Source of the DNA: Acidobacteriota bacterium
GTDB lineage: Bacteria > Acidobacteriota > Polarisedimenticolia > J045
Length of the DNA: 58,831 nucleotides
Reading direction: 5' to 3'
Assembly (NCBI GenBank): GCA_025456425.1
Contig: JALOKP010000004.1
Location: 1-58,831, forward strand
Position 1 is the stretch's first letter. Every line of letters starts with the position of its first letter. Positions 44,569 to 52,540 of this stretch are shown one piece after another. The notes below the pieces were generated by a model. The model saw only the letters and a list, made by a program, of their open reading frames with translations, did not search any database and had not been told where the DNA came from. The translations under genes were made by a program, and so were the position numbers.

Positions 44569-45318
44569 CTAGCTCCCCTGCGGGGTGCAGACACTGGGCT
44601 GGCCGACGCAGGTATAGCCGGGCTCGACGAGGCAGGCGGCGGAGCAGCCGTCGCCGGAGTTGGCGTTGAAGTCGTCGCAGGTTTCGCCCGGGTCGAGCGC
44701 GCCGTCGCCGCAGGCGGGCTGCGGGGTGCAGACACTGGGCTGGCCGACGCAGGTATAGCCGGGCTCGACGAGGCAGGCGGCGGAGCAGCCGTCGCCGGGG
44801 TTGGCGTTGAAGTCGTCGCAGGTTTCGCCCGGGTCGAGCGCGCCGTCGCCGCAGGCGGGCTGAGAGCTGCAGGATGCGACGCTCTTCGCGCGACAACTCG
44901 CCACTCCCAGCGGCCGCTCGGTGCCCGCGCTCGCACTACCGTAGGAGCCCCCATTCGTCCCGTTGTGAGGCACGATGAAGTAGTACCGGCTACCCGTAGC
45001 CGCCGCGATCGTGACGCCCGTCGCCCCGCCGGTGGAGCAGAGCACAGGCACGTGGGTCGTGAAGTTCCCCAACATGCCCTCGTACACCTCGTAGTCGGTG
45101 TCCGTCACACGGCACGACTGGTCCCAGTTCAGAACCAGCCCATCCGGCGCCGACGGGCTTCGCGCGATCGTGAACGGGGCACCCGGAACCGTCGCTCCGG
45201 TCGGTACGGCGCCGGCCGGTAGATGCTGCGGACCGGCGGCGTTCGACACCGACGAGAACAGGAGGCCGGAAGCCAAGGCCAGGACGAGCGCAGTACCGAC
45301 ACGCAGCAGAACGAACAT
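44569..45318 (-). CDS. Secreted protein with Myxococcus-type Cys-rich repeats (DUF4215)
   Basis: This 249-residue protein has a signal peptide (MFVLLRVGTALVLALASGLL, cleaved near SNA). A fibronectin-III-like domain (~28-140; WDQSCRVTDTDYEVYEGML) is followed by two C-terminal Cys-rich repeats of 47 residues. Each has CGDGALDPGETCDDFNAN, a GDGCSAACLVEPGYTC loop and VCTP, the calcium-binding DUF4215 pattern common in Myxococcota surface proteins. The two repeats differ by a single residue. The gene lies inside the inverted-repeat element and may be its cargo. Function is likely adhesion or surface display. Confidence 0.85.
   Translation of the reverse strand: MFVLLRVGTALVLALASGLLFSSVSNAAGPQHLPAGAVPTGATVPGAPFTIARSPSAPDGLVLNWDQSCRVTDTDYEVYEGMLGNFTTHVPVLCSTGGATGVTIAAATGSRYYFIVPHNGTNGGSYGSASAGTERPLGVASCRAKSVASCSSQPACGDGALDPGETCDDFNANPGDGCSAACLVEPGYTCVGQPSVCTPQPACGDGALDPGETCDDFNANSGDGCSAACLVEPGYTCVGQPSVCTPQGS
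44578..44859. repeat. 141-bp direct duplication
   Basis: Copies at 44578-44718 and 44719-44859 match except for one base (Ser/Pro codon change). They encode the two Cys-rich repeats. The near identity points to a recent tandem duplication. Confidence 0.9.
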
Positions 45319-45573: not shown

Positions 45574-46989
45574 TTAGGCGTCGTAGGTGGGCTGGCCGCG
45601 CTGGATCCGCTTCAGTTTCTCGACGAAGGTCGTGCGCTTGAGGTCCAGCAGCTGCGCCGCGCGGGCCTTGTTGCCGCGGGTCAGTTCGAGGCTCTGCAGG
45701 ATCAGGTTGCGCTCGATCTCGGAGACGACGCTGCGGAAGTCGAGGCCGTCCTCGGTGACCTGCACGGAGCCGGCGGGGGCCAGCGACTGGCCGTCGAGCT
45801 CGACCGGCAGGTCGGCGGCGTCGACGAAGGCGCGGCCGCCCGACATCACGGTGGCGTACTCGATCGTGTTCTCCAGCTCGCGCACGTTGCCCGGCCACTC
45901 GTGGCGCATCAGCACGCGCATCGCGTTTTGCGACAGCTCCTTGGCCGGCAGGCGGTTGCGCGCGGCGTACTTGGCGACGAAGTGCGCCGCCAGCAGCGGC
46001 ACGTCCGAGCGCCGCTCGCGCAGCGGCGGGACGAAGACCGGGATCACGTTGAGGCGGTAGAAGAGGTCCTCACGGAACTCGCCACGCTCGACCTTCGCCC
46101 GCAGGTCCTCGTTGCTGGCGGCCACGACGCGGACGTCGATCGGGATCGCCGCAGTGCCGCCGACCCGCGACACCTGCCGACTCTGCAGCACGCGCAGCAG
46201 CTTGACCTGGAGGTCGGGTCGCATCGTCCCGATCTCGTCCAGGAACAGCGTGCCGCCGCGCGCCAGCTCGAAGCGGCCGGGCTTGTCGCGGTCGGCCCCG
46301 GTGTAGGCGCCGCGCACGTGGCCGAACAGTTCGGACTCGATCAGGTTCTCGGGGATCGCGCCGCAGTGCACGGCGACCAGCCGCCCGCTGCGGCGCACCG
46401 GGTGGTGGTGGTGCAGGGCGTGAACGATCAGCTCCTTGCCGACGCCGCTCTCGCCGGTGATCAGCACCGTGCTGTCGACCTGCGTCACCTTGTCGAGCAG
46501 CTGGAACATCCGCTGCATCGAAGGGCTCTTGCCGATGATCCGGTCGAAGCCGGAGCGCTCGGCCAGCTCGGTCCGCAGCTGCGCGTTCTCCTCGCGCAGC
46601 GCGCGGGTGTCGGCCGCCCGCTCGAGCGCGAACCGCAGCTGGCTCATCGCGAACGGCTTGGGGAGGTAGTCGGCGGCCCCCTCGCGCATCGCCTGGACGG
46701 CGGTCTCGATCGAGCCGAAGCCGGTCATGATCAGCACGATCAGGCCGGGGAAGTGCTCGCGGGCCTGGCGGGCCAGGTCGAGGCCGTCCTGGCCGGGGAG
46801 CTTGACGTCGGTGACCAGGACATCGGCCGGCTCCTCGACCAGCAGTTGGAAGGCCCGCTCGGCGCTCTCGGCGCCGCGCACCCTGTGTCCCAGCTCCGCG
46901 AGGTAACCGACGATCGTCTGCAGCAGGCCCGGGTCGTCTTCCGCCACCACGATGTGAAAGCGCTCGCTCTCCCTCGGCATGCTCCCCAT
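45574..46989 (-). CDS. Sigma-54 response regulator (FlrC/NtrC type)
   Basis: This 471-residue regulator has a receiver domain (~10-125; VVAEDDPGLLQ, phospho-Asp in VLVTDVKLPGQDG, LIMTGFG and YLPKPFA). An AAA+ domain (~150-385) has Walker A GESGVGKE, the sigma-54 loop GAYTGA (a normal variant), Walker B GGTLFLDE and FREDLFYRLNV. The C-terminal Fis-type helix is in RGNKARAAQLLDLKRTTFVE. It is divergent from the TPR-fliF-fliG-motE run, which has two sigma-54 promoters. That placement makes it a flagellar-type activator; its partner kinase is not in the window. ATG at 46989 or 46980. Confidence 0.94.
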   Translation of the reverse strand: MGSMPRESERFHIVVAEDDPGLLQTIVGYLAELGHRVRGAESAERAFQLLVEEPADVLVTDVKLPGQDGLDLARQAREHFPGLIVLIMTGFGSIETAVQAMREGAADYLPKPFAMSQLRFALERAADTRALREENAQLRTELAERSGFDRIIGKSPSMQRMFQLLDKVTQVDSTVLITGESGVGKELIVHALHHHHPVRRSGRLVAVHCGAIPENLIESELFGHVRGAYTGADRDKPGRFELARGGTLFLDEIGTMRPDLQVKLLRVLQSRQVSRVGGTAAIPIDVRVVAASNEDLRAKVERGEFREDLFYRLNVIPVFVPPLRERRSDVPLLAAHFVAKYAARNRLPAKELSQNAMRVLMRHEWPGNVRELENTIEYATVMSGGRAFVDAADLPVELDGQSLAPAGSVQVTEDGLDFRSVVSEIERNLILQSLELTRGNKARAAQLLDLKRTTFVEKLKRIQRGQPTYDA

Positions 46990-47226
46990 TCCCCTTCCGC
47001 CCCGTCCCGTTTTTCCGTCCGTGTGCGGGTTGTCGTCGCCTGCGCGGTGTCTTCAAGGAATACATAGGCGGCGCGGAGCGAGTGTCAAGACTTCGACCAC
47101 CGGGCGCGGATCCCCGCCGGGGCGTCGGCGGACCGACGCTCCGGCAGCGCCCGGGTGGCCCGACCGGCCGCCGACAAGCTCCATTTCCGCAACGAGTTGC
47201 GCCCGCCCCGCGGACCGCGGCCGCAA

Positions 47227-47241
47227 GGCACGGCGCTTGCT
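47227..47241 (+). promoter_or_regulatory. Sigma-54 promoter before the TPR gene
   Basis: GGCACGGCGCTTGCT has GG at 47227-47228, ten bases, then GC at 47239-47240. Transcription should begin near 47252, about 28 bases before the GTG start at 47280. The divergent neighbour encodes a sigma-54 regulator. Confidence 0.82.
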
Positions 47242-47279
47242 GCCTCGAGCGGCTGGCCCGTGGGCCCTCGGAGTCGATC

Positions 47280-48521
47280 GTGCGGAAGCTCCTCCCGCTC
47301 GGACTGCTGCTCGTGTCCGCCGCCGCGGCCGCCGTGCTCGGCGCGCGCGCGGCCGGCGAGCCCTCCGCGCGCCAGCGGCTCGCGGCGCTCGACCGGAGCG
47401 GGGCGGCGCCCGCGGACGAGGTCGCGCGGCTTGCACGCGAGGCGCTGGCGAGCGCGCCCGGCGACGCGACGCTGCTCTGGCGCCGCGGCGACGCGCGCCG
47501 CCGGCTGGGCCAGGACGACCTGGCGCTGGCCGACCTGCAGCAGCTGATCCGGACCGCACCCGGCTCGCCGTACGCCGTGCGCGCGCAGCGCGCGCTGCCG
47601 GTGCTGCTCGCACGCGTCGGGCTGGACGGCGAGGCAGCCGAAGCGGACGAGGCGCTGATCGCCGGGCGGCTGGCCGACCCGGTCGCGGTGCTGCCGCGGC
47701 TGGCCGAGACCTACGCGCGGATGGGACGCTCGCAGGAACTGCTCGAGACGATCGGCCGGCTGCGCGCGCTCGACCGCGCGCGCGCCGACGCCGACCCCGA
47801 CCTGGCGTGGCTGGAAGCGGACGCGCTCGAGCGGCGCGGGCCGCCACGCGAGGCGGCGGCGGTGATGCTGGCCTTCGCCGAGCGCTTCCCGGGTGACCGG
47901 CGCCGCGGCGAGGCGCTGGTGCGTGCGGCGCGGGCCCGGGCGGAAACGGGGGAGCTGGCGCAGGCGATCGAACTGGCCGGTCGCGCGGTCGCGGAGCCGC
48001 TGCCGCCGGCCTCCGCGGCGTGGGTGCGCGTCGCGCGGGCCGAGCTGTTCGAGCGCGCGGGGCGCTCGCGCGAGGCCTCGGACGACCTTCGCGCGGCGCT
48101 GGAATCGGGCGCCGACGAGGCGACGATCGAGCGCGTGCTGTCGCGCTACGTCGACATCGAGATGGAACGGCGCGGCACCGAGGGGGCGCTGACGGCGCTG
48201 GCCGCGCTGGTGTCCGGGGGGCGGCCGGCCGTGGCCGGGCCGGCGAAGCGGCGGATGGAAGCGCTGCTCGAGGGGCTCGCGGCCTCGCGCCCGACCGCGC
48301 CTGACCGCGCGGCGTTCCTGGTCGCACTGGCCGGCCGGGCCGACCCGGCGCTGGCGGTTCCGCCGGCACTGCGGCTCGCGGCCGCGCAGCTGTGGGAGGG
48401 GGTCGGGGACTGCGCGCGCGCCGCGCGCACCTACCGGGAACTGGCGTCGGCCGGCCCGCCGGTCGACGGCGAGGCGGAGCGGGGACTCGAGCGCTGCCGG
48501 GCCGGGGCGTCAACGCCATGA
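47280..48521 (+). CDS. Secreted or anchored TPR-repeat protein
   Basis: This 413-residue protein starts at GTG 47280 (VRKLLPLGLLLVSAAAAAVL), giving an N-terminal signal or anchor helix. Alanine-rich helical hairpins of TPR type follow, for example GDATLLWRRGDARRRLGQDD and LAETYARMGRSQELLETIGR. There is no enzymatic motif. Driven by a sigma-54 promoter and directly upstream of fliF, it is a candidate flagellar assembly or periplasmic scaffold protein, but the family cannot be named. A second sigma-54 promoter lies 63 bases after its stop. Confidence 0.8.
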   Translation: MRKLLPLGLLLVSAAAAAVLGARAAGEPSARQRLAALDRSGAAPADEVARLAREALASAPGDATLLWRRGDARRRLGQDDLALADLQQLIRTAPGSPYAVRAQRALPVLLARVGLDGEAAEADEALIAGRLADPVAVLPRLAETYARMGRSQELLETIGRLRALDRARADADPDLAWLEADALERRGPPREAAAVMLAFAERFPGDRRRGEALVRAARARAETGELAQAIELAGRAVAEPLPPASAAWVRVARAELFERAGRSREASDDLRAALESGADEATIERVLSRYVDIEMERRGTEGALTALAALVSGGRPAVAGPAKRRMEALLEGLAASRPTAPDRAAFLVALAGRADPALAVPPALRLAAAQLWEGVGDCARAARTYRELASAGPPVDGEAERGLERCRAGASTP

Positions 48522-48661: not shown

Positions 48662-49714
48662 ATGCCGCCGCCACTCGTCGAGCCGTTCGCCGCCGCAGGG
48701 AAGGCCCTGGCGCCCCGCCCGCGCCTGGCCCTGGCCGTCGCGCTGGCGCTGACCCTCACCGCCGCCGGCGCGGTCGCGATCTGGGCGCAGCCGGAGCCGG
48801 CCGGGCCGGCGGGACCGCCGCCGGCCGGGACAGCGCCGGAACAGGACGCGCCGCAGGGGGACGCGCCGGGCCTCCGGCAGCAGATCGCGCTGCGCGCCGC
48901 GCTCGAGCGCGACGTCGACGGCAAGGTCGCGCGGGTGCTCGAGCCGCTCGTCGGCAGCGGCGGGTTCGTGGTCCGGACGACCGCGGAGATGGACTTCGCG
49001 AAGGTACTGCGGCGCGAGAAGAGCATCGATCCGGACAGCGCCGTGGTCCTGACCGAGGAGCGTTCGAAGGAGAAGCCGGCGGGTGCCTCCGAGCGCCAGG
49101 AGCAGCGCGCGAGCTACGAGTACTCGGTCCGCGAGTCGTCGATCGAGCAGCCGGCGGGGCAGCTGCTGCGGCTGTCGGTCGCGGTGCTGGTCGACCAGAG
49201 CCGGAGCGACGACGCCGGGGTCGACGAGCCCACCGCAACGCCCGGGGCCGGGCCGCGCGCGACGCCGCGCAGCGACGAGGAGATCGCGCAGATCGAGGAG
49301 CTGATCAAGGGGGCGATCGGTTTCGACGCGCGGCGCGGCGACCGCGTCACGGTCGAGCAAGTCGCGTTCCGGCGCGCGCCGGTCGTGACCCCCGCGGTGG
49401 GCCTCGATCCGCGCTCCTGGCCGCCGCGCGTGATGGGGGTCGCGCTGTTCGTGCTGGCGCTGGTGGCCTTCGCCCTGCTGGCGCGGCCGCTGCTCGCGCT
49501 GCTGCGCCCGGCAACGGCGAGCGGCGCGGCGCCGGGCACGGCGGGCGGCCTGCAGCCGGCCGCGGCCGCCTCCGGCGCGCTGCCGCCCGGGCGGCCCTCG
49601 CCGGTCGAGGCGCTGCGGCAGCGGCTCGCCGCCGTCGCCGTCGAGGAGCCGGAGGGGATGGCGCAGACGCTGCGGGTCTGGCTCCACGAGTCGCGCCGCG
49701 AGCGGCAGCCATGA
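48662..49714 (+). CDS. fliF: FliF-like flagellar MS-ring protein lacking RBM1/RBM2
   Basis: FliF forms the MS ring of the flagellar basal body. This protein has 350 residues, against the usual 520-560. It keeps membrane helix 1 (~22-41), the third ring-building domain (~70-238: GKVARVLEPLVGSG, TTAEMDF, IDPDSAVVLTEER, RRGDRVTVEQVAF), helix 2 (~257-281) and the FliG-binding C-terminus (EPEGMAQTLRVWLHE). The YscJ-like RBM1 and RBM2 domains between residues ~45 and 70 are gone, replaced by a Pro/Ala-rich linker, with the frame intact. The ATG at 48662 is used. It overlaps fliG by four bases. Confidence 0.87.
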   Translation: MPPPLVEPFAAAGKALAPRPRLALAVALALTLTAAGAVAIWAQPEPAGPAGPPPAGTAPEQDAPQGDAPGLRQQIALRAALERDVDGKVARVLEPLVGSGGFVVRTTAEMDFAKVLRREKSIDPDSAVVLTEERSKEKPAGASERQEQRASYEYSVRESSIEQPAGQLLRLSVAVLVDQSRSDDAGVDEPTATPGAGPRATPRSDEEIAQIEELIKGAIGFDARRGDRVTVEQVAFRRAPVVTPAVGLDPRSWPPRVMGVALFVLALVAFALLARPLLALLRPATASGAAPGTAGGLQPAAAASGALPPGRPSPVEALRQRLAAVAVEEPEGMAQTLRVWLHESRRERQP

Positions 49715-50742
49715 GCGAGCCGGCGCTGAGCGGCACCCAGAAGGCCGCGATCCTGATGGCGCTGATCGGCGAAGAGGCCGCGGGGAGCGTGCTGCGCCAC
49801 CTCGAGCCGGAGGAGATCCGCCAGGTCACGCTGGAGATCGCGAAGATCCGGATGATCGACCCGCTGGCCTCGGCCGGGGTGCTGCGCGAGTTCGCCGAGC
49901 TGGCGGCCGGCGAGCGCGGCCTGCAGCCGGCGGGACCGAAGCTGGCGCGCAAGCTGCTGCAGCTCACGATGCCGGGCGAGGTCGATCGGCTGGTGCGCGA
50001 TCCCGAGCGGCAGCGGATCGCCGGCGACGAGGACGAGTACGATGAGGCGCGGCTCCCCGAGCTGCCGGCGCCGCTGCTGCGGGCGTCGTCGCGCCGGCTC
50101 TCCGTGCTGCTGGCCGAGGAGGCGCCGCAGACCGTGGCCCTCGTGCTGGCGCACCTGCCGCCGCGCAAGGCGGCGCGCGTCCTGCAGTTGCTGCCGGCCG
50201 AGCGCCGGCTCGAGGCGACGCGCCGGATGGCGACGATCCGCGAGATCCGGCCCGACGTGGTCCAGCGCGTGGCGCAGGTCCTGCTGGACCGGCTGGCCGA
50301 CCTGGGCGAGGAGCCGCTGGTGCCGGTCAACGGCGTGCAGGCTGCGGCCGAGGCGCTGACCCGGATGGGTCGGCCCGCCGGGCGGGAGATCGTCGAGGCG
50401 ATGGCCGGCGAGTTCCCGGACCTGTCGCGGCAGTTGCGCGAGCTGCTCTACACCTTCGACATCCTGCGCGGCCTCGGCGACCGCGACGCGCAGGAGGTGC
50501 TGCGGCAGGTCGACCGCACCACGCTGGCGCTGGCGCTGAAGGGGGGCGATCCCGAGGTGACGCAGCTCTTCCTGCGCAACATGTCCGAGCGTGCGGCGCA
50601 GATGCTGGCAGAGGAGATGGACCTGGCCGGGGCGCCGCGCCTGGCCGAAATCGAGCAGGCTCAGCGGACGATCGTCGAGCTGGTGCTGCGGCTCGAGGCC
50701 GAGGGGCTGGTCGTGCTGGAGGAGCCGGCCGGTGTCGCCTAG
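49711..50742 (+). CDS. fliG: Flagellar motor switch protein FliG
   Basis: FliG couples the rotor to the stator and binds FliF. This 343-residue protein has all three domains: the FliF-binding N-terminus (SGTQKAAILMALIGEEAAG, then LEPEEIRQVTLEIAKI), the middle domain (LLAEEAPQTVALVLAHLPPR) and the torque domain (LFLRNMSERAAQMLAEEMDL, then RLAEIEQAQRTIVELVLRLE). Charged torque-helix residues are largely kept. The ATG at 49711 overlaps the fliF stop; its own stop overlaps motE by 11 bases. Length is normal. Confidence 0.96.
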   Translation: MSEPALSGTQKAAILMALIGEEAAGSVLRHLEPEEIRQVTLEIAKIRMIDPLASAGVLREFAELAAGERGLQPAGPKLARKLLQLTMPGEVDRLVRDPERQRIAGDEDEYDEARLPELPAPLLRASSRRLSVLLAEEAPQTVALVLAHLPPRKAARVLQLLPAERRLEATRRMATIREIRPDVVQRVAQVLLDRLADLGEEPLVPVNGVQAAAEALTRMGRPAGREIVEAMAGEFPDLSRQLRELLYTFDILRGLGDRDAQEVLRQVDRTTLALALKGGDPEVTQLFLRNMSERAAQMLAEEMDLAGAPRLAEIEQAQRTIVELVLRLEAEGLVVLEEPAGVA

Positions 50743-51325
50743 ACGCGCGCTGGTCGCGGCCGCGGCGGTGGCGCTGGCGATCAACGCGCTGCTGGCCGTC
50801 GACGCGCTGACGGTGGGGCTGCTGGTGCCCCGCGCGGAAGCGCGGGCGCCTGTGGCGGCGCGGGCCGGGGCCGGGGCCGGCGTCGGCGAGGCCGCGACCG
50901 CGTCCCGGACCGGGGTCGCCGGGGCGGAGGCCGGCGCGGCGGAAGCGGAGGCCGCCTACCGCGCGCTGGTCGCCGAGTTGACGCGGCAGAAGCAGGCGCT
51001 CGACCGGCGTGCGGCGGCGCTGGCGGAGCGCGAGCAGCGGGTCGCCGGGGCGCAGCAGGCGCTGCAGGCGCGCGGGGGCGCGCCGGAGTCGCCCTCCGGC
51101 TTCGAGCGGCTGGTCCGGGCCTACGAGGCGATGGACCCCGACAACGCCGCCGCCGCGCTGGCGTCGCTCTACGGGAAGGAGCGGCAGGCCGTGACCGAGA
51201 TCCTGCTGGGGATGAAGCCGCGGCAAGCAGCGGCGGTGCTGGACGCGCTCGCGGCGCGCGCGCCGTCGGTGGCCGCCGAGCTGTCGTTGGCGGCGTGGCA
51301 GCGGGAGCGCGGACAGCGCCCTTAG
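50732..51325 (+). CDS. MotE/FlbB-like flagellar protein
   Basis: This 197-residue protein has an N-terminal helix (VSPRRALVAAAAVALAINAL), a coiled coil (~70-115; LTRQKQALDRRAAALAEREQ) and a C-terminal MgtE-N-like domain (YEAMDPDNAAAALASLYGKE, then EILLGMKPRQAAAVLDAL). This is the MotE/FlbB architecture, a periplasmic chaperone for the motor stator. It starts at GTG 50732 inside the end of fliG. The usual fliH-fliI-fliJ genes do not follow; a decayed transposase starts 130 bases later. Confidence 0.83.
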   Translation: MSPRRALVAAAAVALAINALLAVDALTVGLLVPRAEARAPVAARAGAGAGVGEAATASRTGVAGAEAGAAEAEAAYRALVAELTRQKQALDRRAAALAEREQRVAGAQQALQARGGAPESPSGFERLVRAYEAMDPDNAAAALASLYGKERQAVTEILLGMKPRQAAAVLDALAARAPSVAAELSLAAWQRERGQRP

Positions 51326-51456
51326 GGAAATGGGTGTGCCTCGCCACATCCCCGTCCGCCTTGCTCCTCAACGAGTTGCGCTCCTGTGCAGGATACCCGA
51401 AGCGCCCGCGGACGAGTCCGGTTGCCCTCCCTCCCGACCGCCATCATCGTGCGTGG

Positions 51457-52227
51457 ATGCTCAGCCACGCTCTGGCCGTCGCCCGGGCTTTCCTCGCGAT
51501 CTTCGCCTGCCGGGCCGACCTGATCCTGGAGAACCTCGCGCTCCGACAGCAGGTCGCTGTCCTCCAACGGAAGCAACCTCGACCGCGTCTCCGCGCGTTC
51601 GATGAGGTCCTGAAGCTCGGGCTCGAGGTCTCCGAGCGCACCGTATCGCGCACCATGCCCCGGCGCCCGACCCATCCCGACGAATCGCCACGATCGACTT
51701 CTTCACCGTCCCCACCGCCACGTGCCGCGTACTCTACGTCTTCTTCGTCGTCCACGACACTCGGCGCGAGCTGATGCACTTCCGTGTCACCGGCCATCCG
51801 ACGGCGGCCTGGATCACGCAGCAACTCCGCGAGGCGTTCCCCTACGGCCAGGCCCCGCGCTACCTGATCCTCGACCGTGACGCCAAGTACGGCCACGAGG
51901 TCCTCACCGCGATCCACCACTTGGTCATCACACCAAAAGCAGATCACGACTCGCAGTCCCTGGCAGAACGGAGTCGCCGAGAGAATCGTCAGCACCGCAC
52001 GCGCCGAGCTTCTCGATCACGTCATCGTCCTCACCGAGAAGCACTTGCAGCGCCTCCTGGCCGGCTTCGCCTCTTACTACCTCAACGACCTGTCGCACTT
52101 GTTCCTGGAGAAGGAGACGCCCGCGGTGCGCGTCGTGGAGCCGAAGCCGCATCCAGCCGCCGAGGTCATCGCTCTGCCTCGCCTCGGCGGGCTTCACCAT
52201 CGCTACGCTTGGTGCTGCGCGGCCTGA
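51457..52227 (+). pseudogene. Decayed integrase-core (DDE) transposase
   Basis: Three segments in different frames belong to one rve-type transposase. 51457-~51680 gives MLSHALAVARAFLAIFACRA and, after an internal deletion, KLGLEVSERTVSRTMPRRP. ~51682-51960 gives DFFTVPTATCRVLYVFFVVH, WITQQLREAFPYGQAPRYL and ILDRDAKYGHEVL. ~51950-52227 gives SPWQNGVAERIVSTARAELL and LDHVIVLTEKHL. At least two frameshifts and one deletion make it non-functional. No clear terminal repeats were found. It lies straight after motE, where the flagellar cluster appears to stop. Confidence 0.85.
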
Positions 52228-52540
52228 GGGTTCTGCTCGACAAGTCCACTGCTGCGGTCTCGTTATGGAGGGCGTGTGCTCTTGCAGGAACACGCACCGC
52301 CGCCACCGCTGTCAGCCGGTGGGCATGACCGGCGCCGGCACACCGAGGGGCGCGTCCGGCCGGCGTGTCAACCTACCATCGCGAGCCGCGCGAGCCATCA
52401 CGGGTGCCCGGACTCGATTGTGCCGCGGGACAGGGGAAACGCGGCCAATACCGGCTATCCGCGTCGTCATTGCCCGTCGCGATGGGCGTACAATTGGCAG
52501 CTAGCGCGGGACTTCCCGATCCGGCGCGGAGGGGGGCAAG
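52228..52540. other. Spacer between transposase remnant and secreted-protein gene
   Basis: No gene is supported in these 313 bases. A TACAAT near 52486-52491 could be a -10 element. GGAGGGGGG (52528-52536) is the ribosome site for the ATG at 52541. Confidence 0.5.

Follow-up and report, generated by a model that had tools for sequence, protein, structure and literature searches.

The ring of the flagellar protein FliF contains about 34 subunits, and the usual view ties FliF and the C-ring firmly to export and to the building of a filament. Stators of the MotAB-like kind can work without a flagellum, as in the Agl/Glt gliding motor of myxobacteria, which has no FliF, FliG or C-ring, and Chlamydiota keep FliF, FliI and FlhA. 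A 2025 survey found rotor proteins to be highly correlated with flagellin and set the Chlamydiota apart as a separate partial flagellar cluster (PMC12199754). Non-flagellated Lysobacter species, in which some flagellar genes are kept, have lost fliG, fliM, motA and motB (PMC9927559).

The locus analyzed here differs from each of these systems. It lies in an Acidobacteriota MAG (4.28 Mb, 252 contigs, 84.86% complete), on a contig (C92) that corresponds to the window, that is, the whole 58.8-kb stretch of DNA under analysis. The MAG shares with the E-ring motor of polar flagellates (MotE/FlgY/FlbB) the proteins FliG, FliM, FliN, MotA, MotB, FliL, an E-ring protein, FlhF/FlhG and FliA and a TPR neighbor, but no export gate, ATPase complex, rod, P/L rings, hook or flagellin was found in it. 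This is the opposite of the C-ring and stator loss of Lysobacter. MotAB-like stators without a flagellum are common to the MAG and the Agl/Glt system, whereas the rotor is kept only in the former. The FliF protein of the window (hereafter FliF') is a direct homolog of flagellar FliF (PF08345; TIGR00206), with which it shares TM1, RBM3, TM2, the FliG-binding tail and the position before fliG, and from which it differs in missing RBM1, RBM2 and the S-ring top loop. The features of the region are as follows (window coordinates).

45574..46989, minus strand: sigma-54-type response regulator (receiver, AAA and Fis HTH; Pfam), a divergent conserved neighbor of the flagellar operon
47082..48521, plus strand: TPR protein (TPR matches) with a probable signal sequence; likely true start near 47.28 kb
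48662..49714, plus strand: short FliF (FliF'), 350 aa, arranged as TM1, linker, RBM3 with short collar, TM2 and FliG-binding tail
48722..48778, plus strand: TM1 helix of FliF', aa 21-39 (AlphaFold; match to the relatives' TM1 judged by eye)
48782..48862, plus strand: Pro/Ala linker standing where RBM1 and RBM2 would be, aa 41-67 (alignment)
48863..49360, plus strand: RBM3 with shortened beta-collar, aa 68-233 (Pfam, AlphaFold, Foldseek)
49076..49105, plus strand: second deletion site in FliF' (S-ring top loop), aa 139-148 (alignment)
49424..49525, plus strand: TM2 helix of FliF', aa 255-288 (AlphaFold)
49601..49696, plus strand: cytoplasmic FliG-binding tail of FliF', aa 314-345 (alignment conservation; AlphaFold helix 314-328)
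49711..50742, plus strand: fliG, starting just inside the 3' end of fliF'; its product has complete FliG N, M and C domains (Pfam, NCBIfam, alignment)
50732..51325, plus strand: MotE/YlxF/FlbB-type E-ring protein, overlapping the end of fliG; TM, coiled coil and ARM-like head (orthology, AlphaFold, Foldseek)
51440..52330, plus strand: frame-broken insertion-sequence (rve integrase) remnant directly 3' of motE (rve_3 Pfam match, ORFs)

The initial annotation had described a FliF in which both membrane helices, RBM3 and the FliG-binding tail are kept and RBM1 and RBM2 give way to a short in-frame Pro/Ala linker, and our analysis bore this out. FliF_C was the sole Pfam match on FliF' (E 2.8e-30, aa 93-236, full model), with no match to the YscJ_FliF N-terminal domain. 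A MAFFT alignment to the FliFs of relatives (14 sequences) showed that FliF' retains RBM3, TM2 and the tail (EEPEGMAQTLRVWLHES) and that about 185 residues comprising RBM1 and RBM2 (the YscJ_FliF region, with its ASVxV-type motif) are replaced by a linker of ~25 residues. The hydrophobic N-terminus LAPRPRLALAVALALTLTAAGAVAIWAQPEP matches the TM1 of relatives LSLKQRISLGASALMTAAAVIALVWWAKQP by eye, MAFFT having put it elsewhere. The alignment uncovered a second deletion of ~33 residues, which takes away the loop at the top of the beta-collar with its conserved sequence GVPGTASNLPG, the S-ring top loop (PGxxSNxP). Both deletions are in frame.

An AlphaFold model of FliF', built from 8 sequences (mean pLDDT 61, RBM3 core 75-90), predicted a TM helix at 21-39, an alpha-beta-beta-alpha-beta fold at 68-233, a TM helix at 255-288 and a tail helix at 314-328. 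In a Foldseek search with this model, the first 18 matches were MS-ring structures, solved or modelled, the RBM3 of solved MS rings being matched at E ~1e-10. The next match was SpoIIIAG (5wc3, E 0.015), whose ring in endospore formers is likewise built from a membrane-anchored ring-building motif with a beta insertion and no RBM1/2; this fold match is weak, and SpoIIIAG differs in having neither a FliG/C-ring nor stators and in its gene context. FliF' scored 57.7 bits against the FliF equivalog TIGR00206, below the cut-off of 129.75. The features of an injectisome SctJ, an RBM1/RBM2 lipoprotein accompanied by a type III export gate, were not found either, as FliF' has no RBM1/2 and the genome gave no FHIPEP or FliP family match.

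In flagellar motors, FliF meets FliP/FliQ through RBM2 and FlgB/C/F/G through the S-ring loops (PMC11481574), and the ASVxV motif, which belongs to the region lost from FliF', is believed to bring FliF to the export core (PMC7064773). As FliP/FliQ are anchored by RBM2 and the rod by the S-ring loop, and anchors and anchored parts alike are missing here, interfaces and partners have been lost together. RBM3 alone makes rings in Salmonella, and FlhF or FliG is needed for ring formation in some polar flagellates (PMC8786727); both FlhF and FliG are retained in the MAG.

The gene neighborhood of fliF' is reduced as well. The order in the window is the response regulator (minus strand), then TPR - fliF' - fliG - motE and the insertion-sequence remnant, with overlaps of a few bases between fliF' and fliG and between fliG and motE. 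In relatives it is the response regulator (minus strand), then TPR - HK - RR2 - flgB - flgC - fliE - fliF - fliG - fliH - fliI - (fliJ) - motE, where fliJ is inferred from position and flgC of G009 carries no separate annotation. HK-RR-flgB-flgC-fliE and fliH-fliI are therefore missing from the window operon. The sigma-54-type regulator shows 70-77% identity in four same-family relatives, where it adjoins the same TPR gene, and the TPR gene has an orthologue at the same position in relatives (32-50% identity). The TPR protein is a candidate periplasmic scaffold or spoke; the MotE partners MotC, MotK, PflA and FlcB are TPR-rich (PMC13023049). The FliG that follows FliF' is normal, as had been noted from the sequence, passing the NCBIfam FliG equivalog cut-off (228.7 against 226.7) and being 60% identical to the FliG of G009. 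The gene 3' of fliG encodes a MotE/YlxF/FlbB-type E-ring protein, a TM helix, coiled coil, ARM-like head and flagellar locus all being present. Its best Foldseek match was YlxF of a FliF-YlxF model, followed by FliG and MgtE domains; MgtE_N was undetected by Pfam, and a sequence search of the PDB gave no informative match. The insertion-sequence remnant behind motE may have played a part in the deletions.

A second reduced locus was found on another contig (C180, 66.7 kb; L075:10772-18385, minus strand), with the order fliN2-flhF-flhG-fliA-fliM-fliN-(72-aa TM ORF)-flgM-fliW-csrA-motA-motB-fliL. The same stretch in the relative G004 reads fliK-flgD-flgE-fliN2-fliP-fliQ-fliR-flhB-flhA-flhF-flhG-fliA-fliM-fliN-flgF-flgG-flgA-flgH-flgI-flgJ-flgM-flgN-flgK-flgL-fliW-csrA, followed by fliL-motB-motA in the opposite strand order. 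Missing from C180 in comparison are fliK-flgD-flgE, fliPQR-flhB-flhA, flgFGAHIJ and flgNKL. Only 24 bp separate the end of fliN2 from flhF, where G004 has fliP-Q-R-flhB-flhA. The same reduction pattern is thus seen on two unlinked contigs of one MAG, and these are closer to each other in tetranucleotide composition (r 0.92) than either is to a relative. In G004 the lost genes are flanked by genes that are direct neighbors on a single contig here, so that gaps in the MAG do not account for their being missing from these positions. The loop deletion in FliF', the operon reduction and the C180 locus all go beyond what the initial annotation had noticed.

Two small ORFs of the C180 locus may be recorded. 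The 72-aa membrane protein after fliN (L075:13969-14184) has a similar one at the same place in G001 and G004 and no Pfam match. The ORF beside fliN2 (L075:18583-19785, plus strand) also lacks a Pfam match; part of it aligns, at 37% identity, with an ORF next to the fliK end of the G004 locus.

Profile searches of the whole MAG gave one match for FliF_C, one for FliG, three for FliMN_C and one for MotB (MotB_plug). The FliG, FliM and FliN switch complex is present, as are a flagellar-type stator (MotA, and MotB with plug and PG-binding domain), FliL and the MotE-type E-ring protein. FlhA and FliP gave no match anywhere in the MAG, so that the export gate was not found, and rod/hook C-terminus and flagellin models gave none either; FlhA, rod/hook and flagellin are present in all same-family genomes tested. 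The one FliF_C match is FliF' itself, and the search for a second, full FliF in the MAG, which had been proposed as a check, came back empty. The proposed comparison with relatives also came out in favor of the initial annotation: ten same-family genomes carry a full-length FliF of 521-541 aa, and that of an eleventh is cut by a contig end.

Across the phylum, FliF was present in 115 of 396 Acidobacteriota genomes, and an internal RBM3-only FliF in a single one of these 115, namely the source MAG; a plasmid search returned distant FliFs only. Several other short FliFs were rejected as RBM3-only cases: that of G291 runs into a contig end, that of G187 keeps RBM1/2 and is broken C-terminally, and those of G044, G003 and G333 were judged split or at a contig end from their coordinates. 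FlhA was missing from four of the 115 (the source MAG, G018, G108 and G312). G018 (L052, G018:C22) was considered as a second reduced case, having FliF and FliG and no FlhA, yet its operon holds flgB, flgC, fliE and fliI, and a missing contig is therefore more likely there than a true loss of FlhA. G108 has a full FliF, and the FliF frame of G312 is 593 aa long. The pattern comes from one MAG, 84.9% complete and with no congener to replicate it.

Residues of the torque interface are retained. In E. coli, R90 pairs with D288-D289 and E98 with R281 (PMC12505986). The alignments showed that MotA keeps R90/E98, the ARRESLLALE region and both prolines, MotB keeps the channel Asp (YGDMMSLLLCFF), FliG_C its charged helix (GDRDAQEVLRQVDR) and FliM its N-terminal motif LSQAEVDSLL. 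Gene content, gene order, deletions, intact ORFs and conserved torque residues together favor a model, to which we assign a probability of about 0.58, where FliF' belongs to a rotary motor that derives from the flagellum and is shorn of all but torque generation. With its two TM helices and an RBM3 ring, FliF' would make up a thin S-ring of the inner membrane and would carry a FliG-FliM-FliN C-ring beneath it. MotA/MotB with FliL around the ring would be the drive, ion flow turning a ring that no axle connects to the exterior, and the MotE-type E-ring would serve both as a bearing and as the scaffold of the stators. Polar placement of the complex would fall to FlhF/FlhG, and transcription of some of the genes to FliA. 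The surfaces of FliF for the export gate (RBM1/RBM2) and the rod (S-ring loop) would have been lost because those partners no longer exist. The motor would most likely serve the envelope, the cell surface or sensing and not swimming; torque could be passed to a periplasmic or cytoplasmic partner, or the complex could serve as a sensor of load or ion-motive force.

The suggestion, made when the gene was first annotated, of a minimal MS ring or non-flagellar rotor is supported to the extent that rotor, stator and E-ring genes are kept and no export gate, rod, hook or flagellin was found; assembly, rotation and function are what we infer. A more specific proposal, of a dedicated non-flagellar machine in which an RBM3-only ring, C-ring, E-ring and MotAB do envelope work or load sensing with no rod, hook, filament or export, is one we put forward tentatively, as possible and somewhat less likely than not. 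The parts are flagellar; the combination of rotor, stators and E-ring with an RBM3-only FliF and no export or axial structure is new to the literature searched. Nothing matching a flagellar motor without export apparatus was found in the open-access literature searched, and to our knowledge such a class of rotary motor has not been described before. If the model is correct, the torque unit would be a module that evolution can split off from the rest of the flagellum, and a natural minimal motor would make testable what a flagellar motor can do without a flagellum; the system would be categorically new only if non-flagellar work by the motor were shown.

The main rival, somewhat unlikely in our judgment, is that the locus is a flagellar relic in which export and axial genes were deleted and rotor and stator genes are leftovers still unbroken. 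Flagellar loss is frequent in bacteria (PMC12199754; PMC10746217), and the insertion-sequence remnant abuts motE. The FliG branch leading to the source MAG (G000) measures 0.52 against 0.23 in G009, the MotA branch 0.51 against 0.25 or less in close relatives, and the longest MotB branch is that of the source MAG, which is not so for FlhF and MotE. With FliG and MotA evolving about two-fold faster than in relatives and MotB longest, relaxed constraint is possible. FlgM and FliW (L075:13013-13896) are also kept although neither an export route for FlgM nor a flagellin partner for FliW was found. FlgM is normally exported and FliW normally binds flagellin; without these, the FliA/FlgM and CsrA/FliW circuits either work differently or are relics. 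Against a relic, no debris of the lost genes came up: tblastn with 22 lost proteins and the N-terminus of G009 FliF gave no significant match to either C92 or C180 (best E 0.007, FlgJ over 28 residues). Most of the same queries matched strongly in the compared stretches of G001, the FlgE match being partial and FliK, FlgD and FliP/Q/R lacking one because those genes fall outside the stretches compared. None of the 17 retained ORFs is interrupted, and all show codon periodicity (GC3 0.90-0.97); the conservation of FliM, FliN, FlhF and FlhG is on a par with that in flagellated relatives. The genes retained on the two contigs fall into functional classes (rotor, stator, bearing, placement), and decay would hardly trim FliF in frame at precisely the interfaces for export and rod. 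We read the retained proteins as constrained with a changed role, relaxed selection being a real alternative. The branch lengths, the partnerless FlgM and FliW and the remnant beside motE count against the motor model too, as do its source in a single 84.9%-complete MAG and the fact that a rotor partner was not found.

A non-rotating use appears improbable. FliF', FliG and FliM would then be a polar scaffold or signal platform working with FlhF/FlhG and two-component regulators, and MotAB only a load- or PMF-linked channel. In polar flagellates, the two-component systems of the flagellum do receive a signal from FliF/FliG complexes, but the C. jejuni signal needs the export core (PMC7064773), and of the regulators here the neighboring sigma-54 one is kept whereas the flagellar HK-RR pair adjoining flgB is lost. 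Moreover, the stator torque residues, the peptidoglycan-binding domain of MotB and FliG_C, all retained, would be superfluous for a scaffold. Least credible is an assembly or binning artefact, with collapsed or chimeric contigs and the export genes on missing ones: the MAG is incomplete and in 252 contigs, and single flagellar genes are missing from some relatives' MAGs (FliP in G001 and G002, FlhA in G018), but the genes that flank the lost ones in relatives are neighbors here inside two long contigs (58.8 and 66.7 kb), where gaps are no explanation. Moreover, a number of the junctions coincide with gene ends and show neat overlaps or a spacing of 24 bp, neither deletion in FliF shifts the frame, and contig composition agrees. 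Elsewhere in the window, two near-identical DUF4215 repeats were observed in a secreted-looking protein (44572-45318, minus strand).
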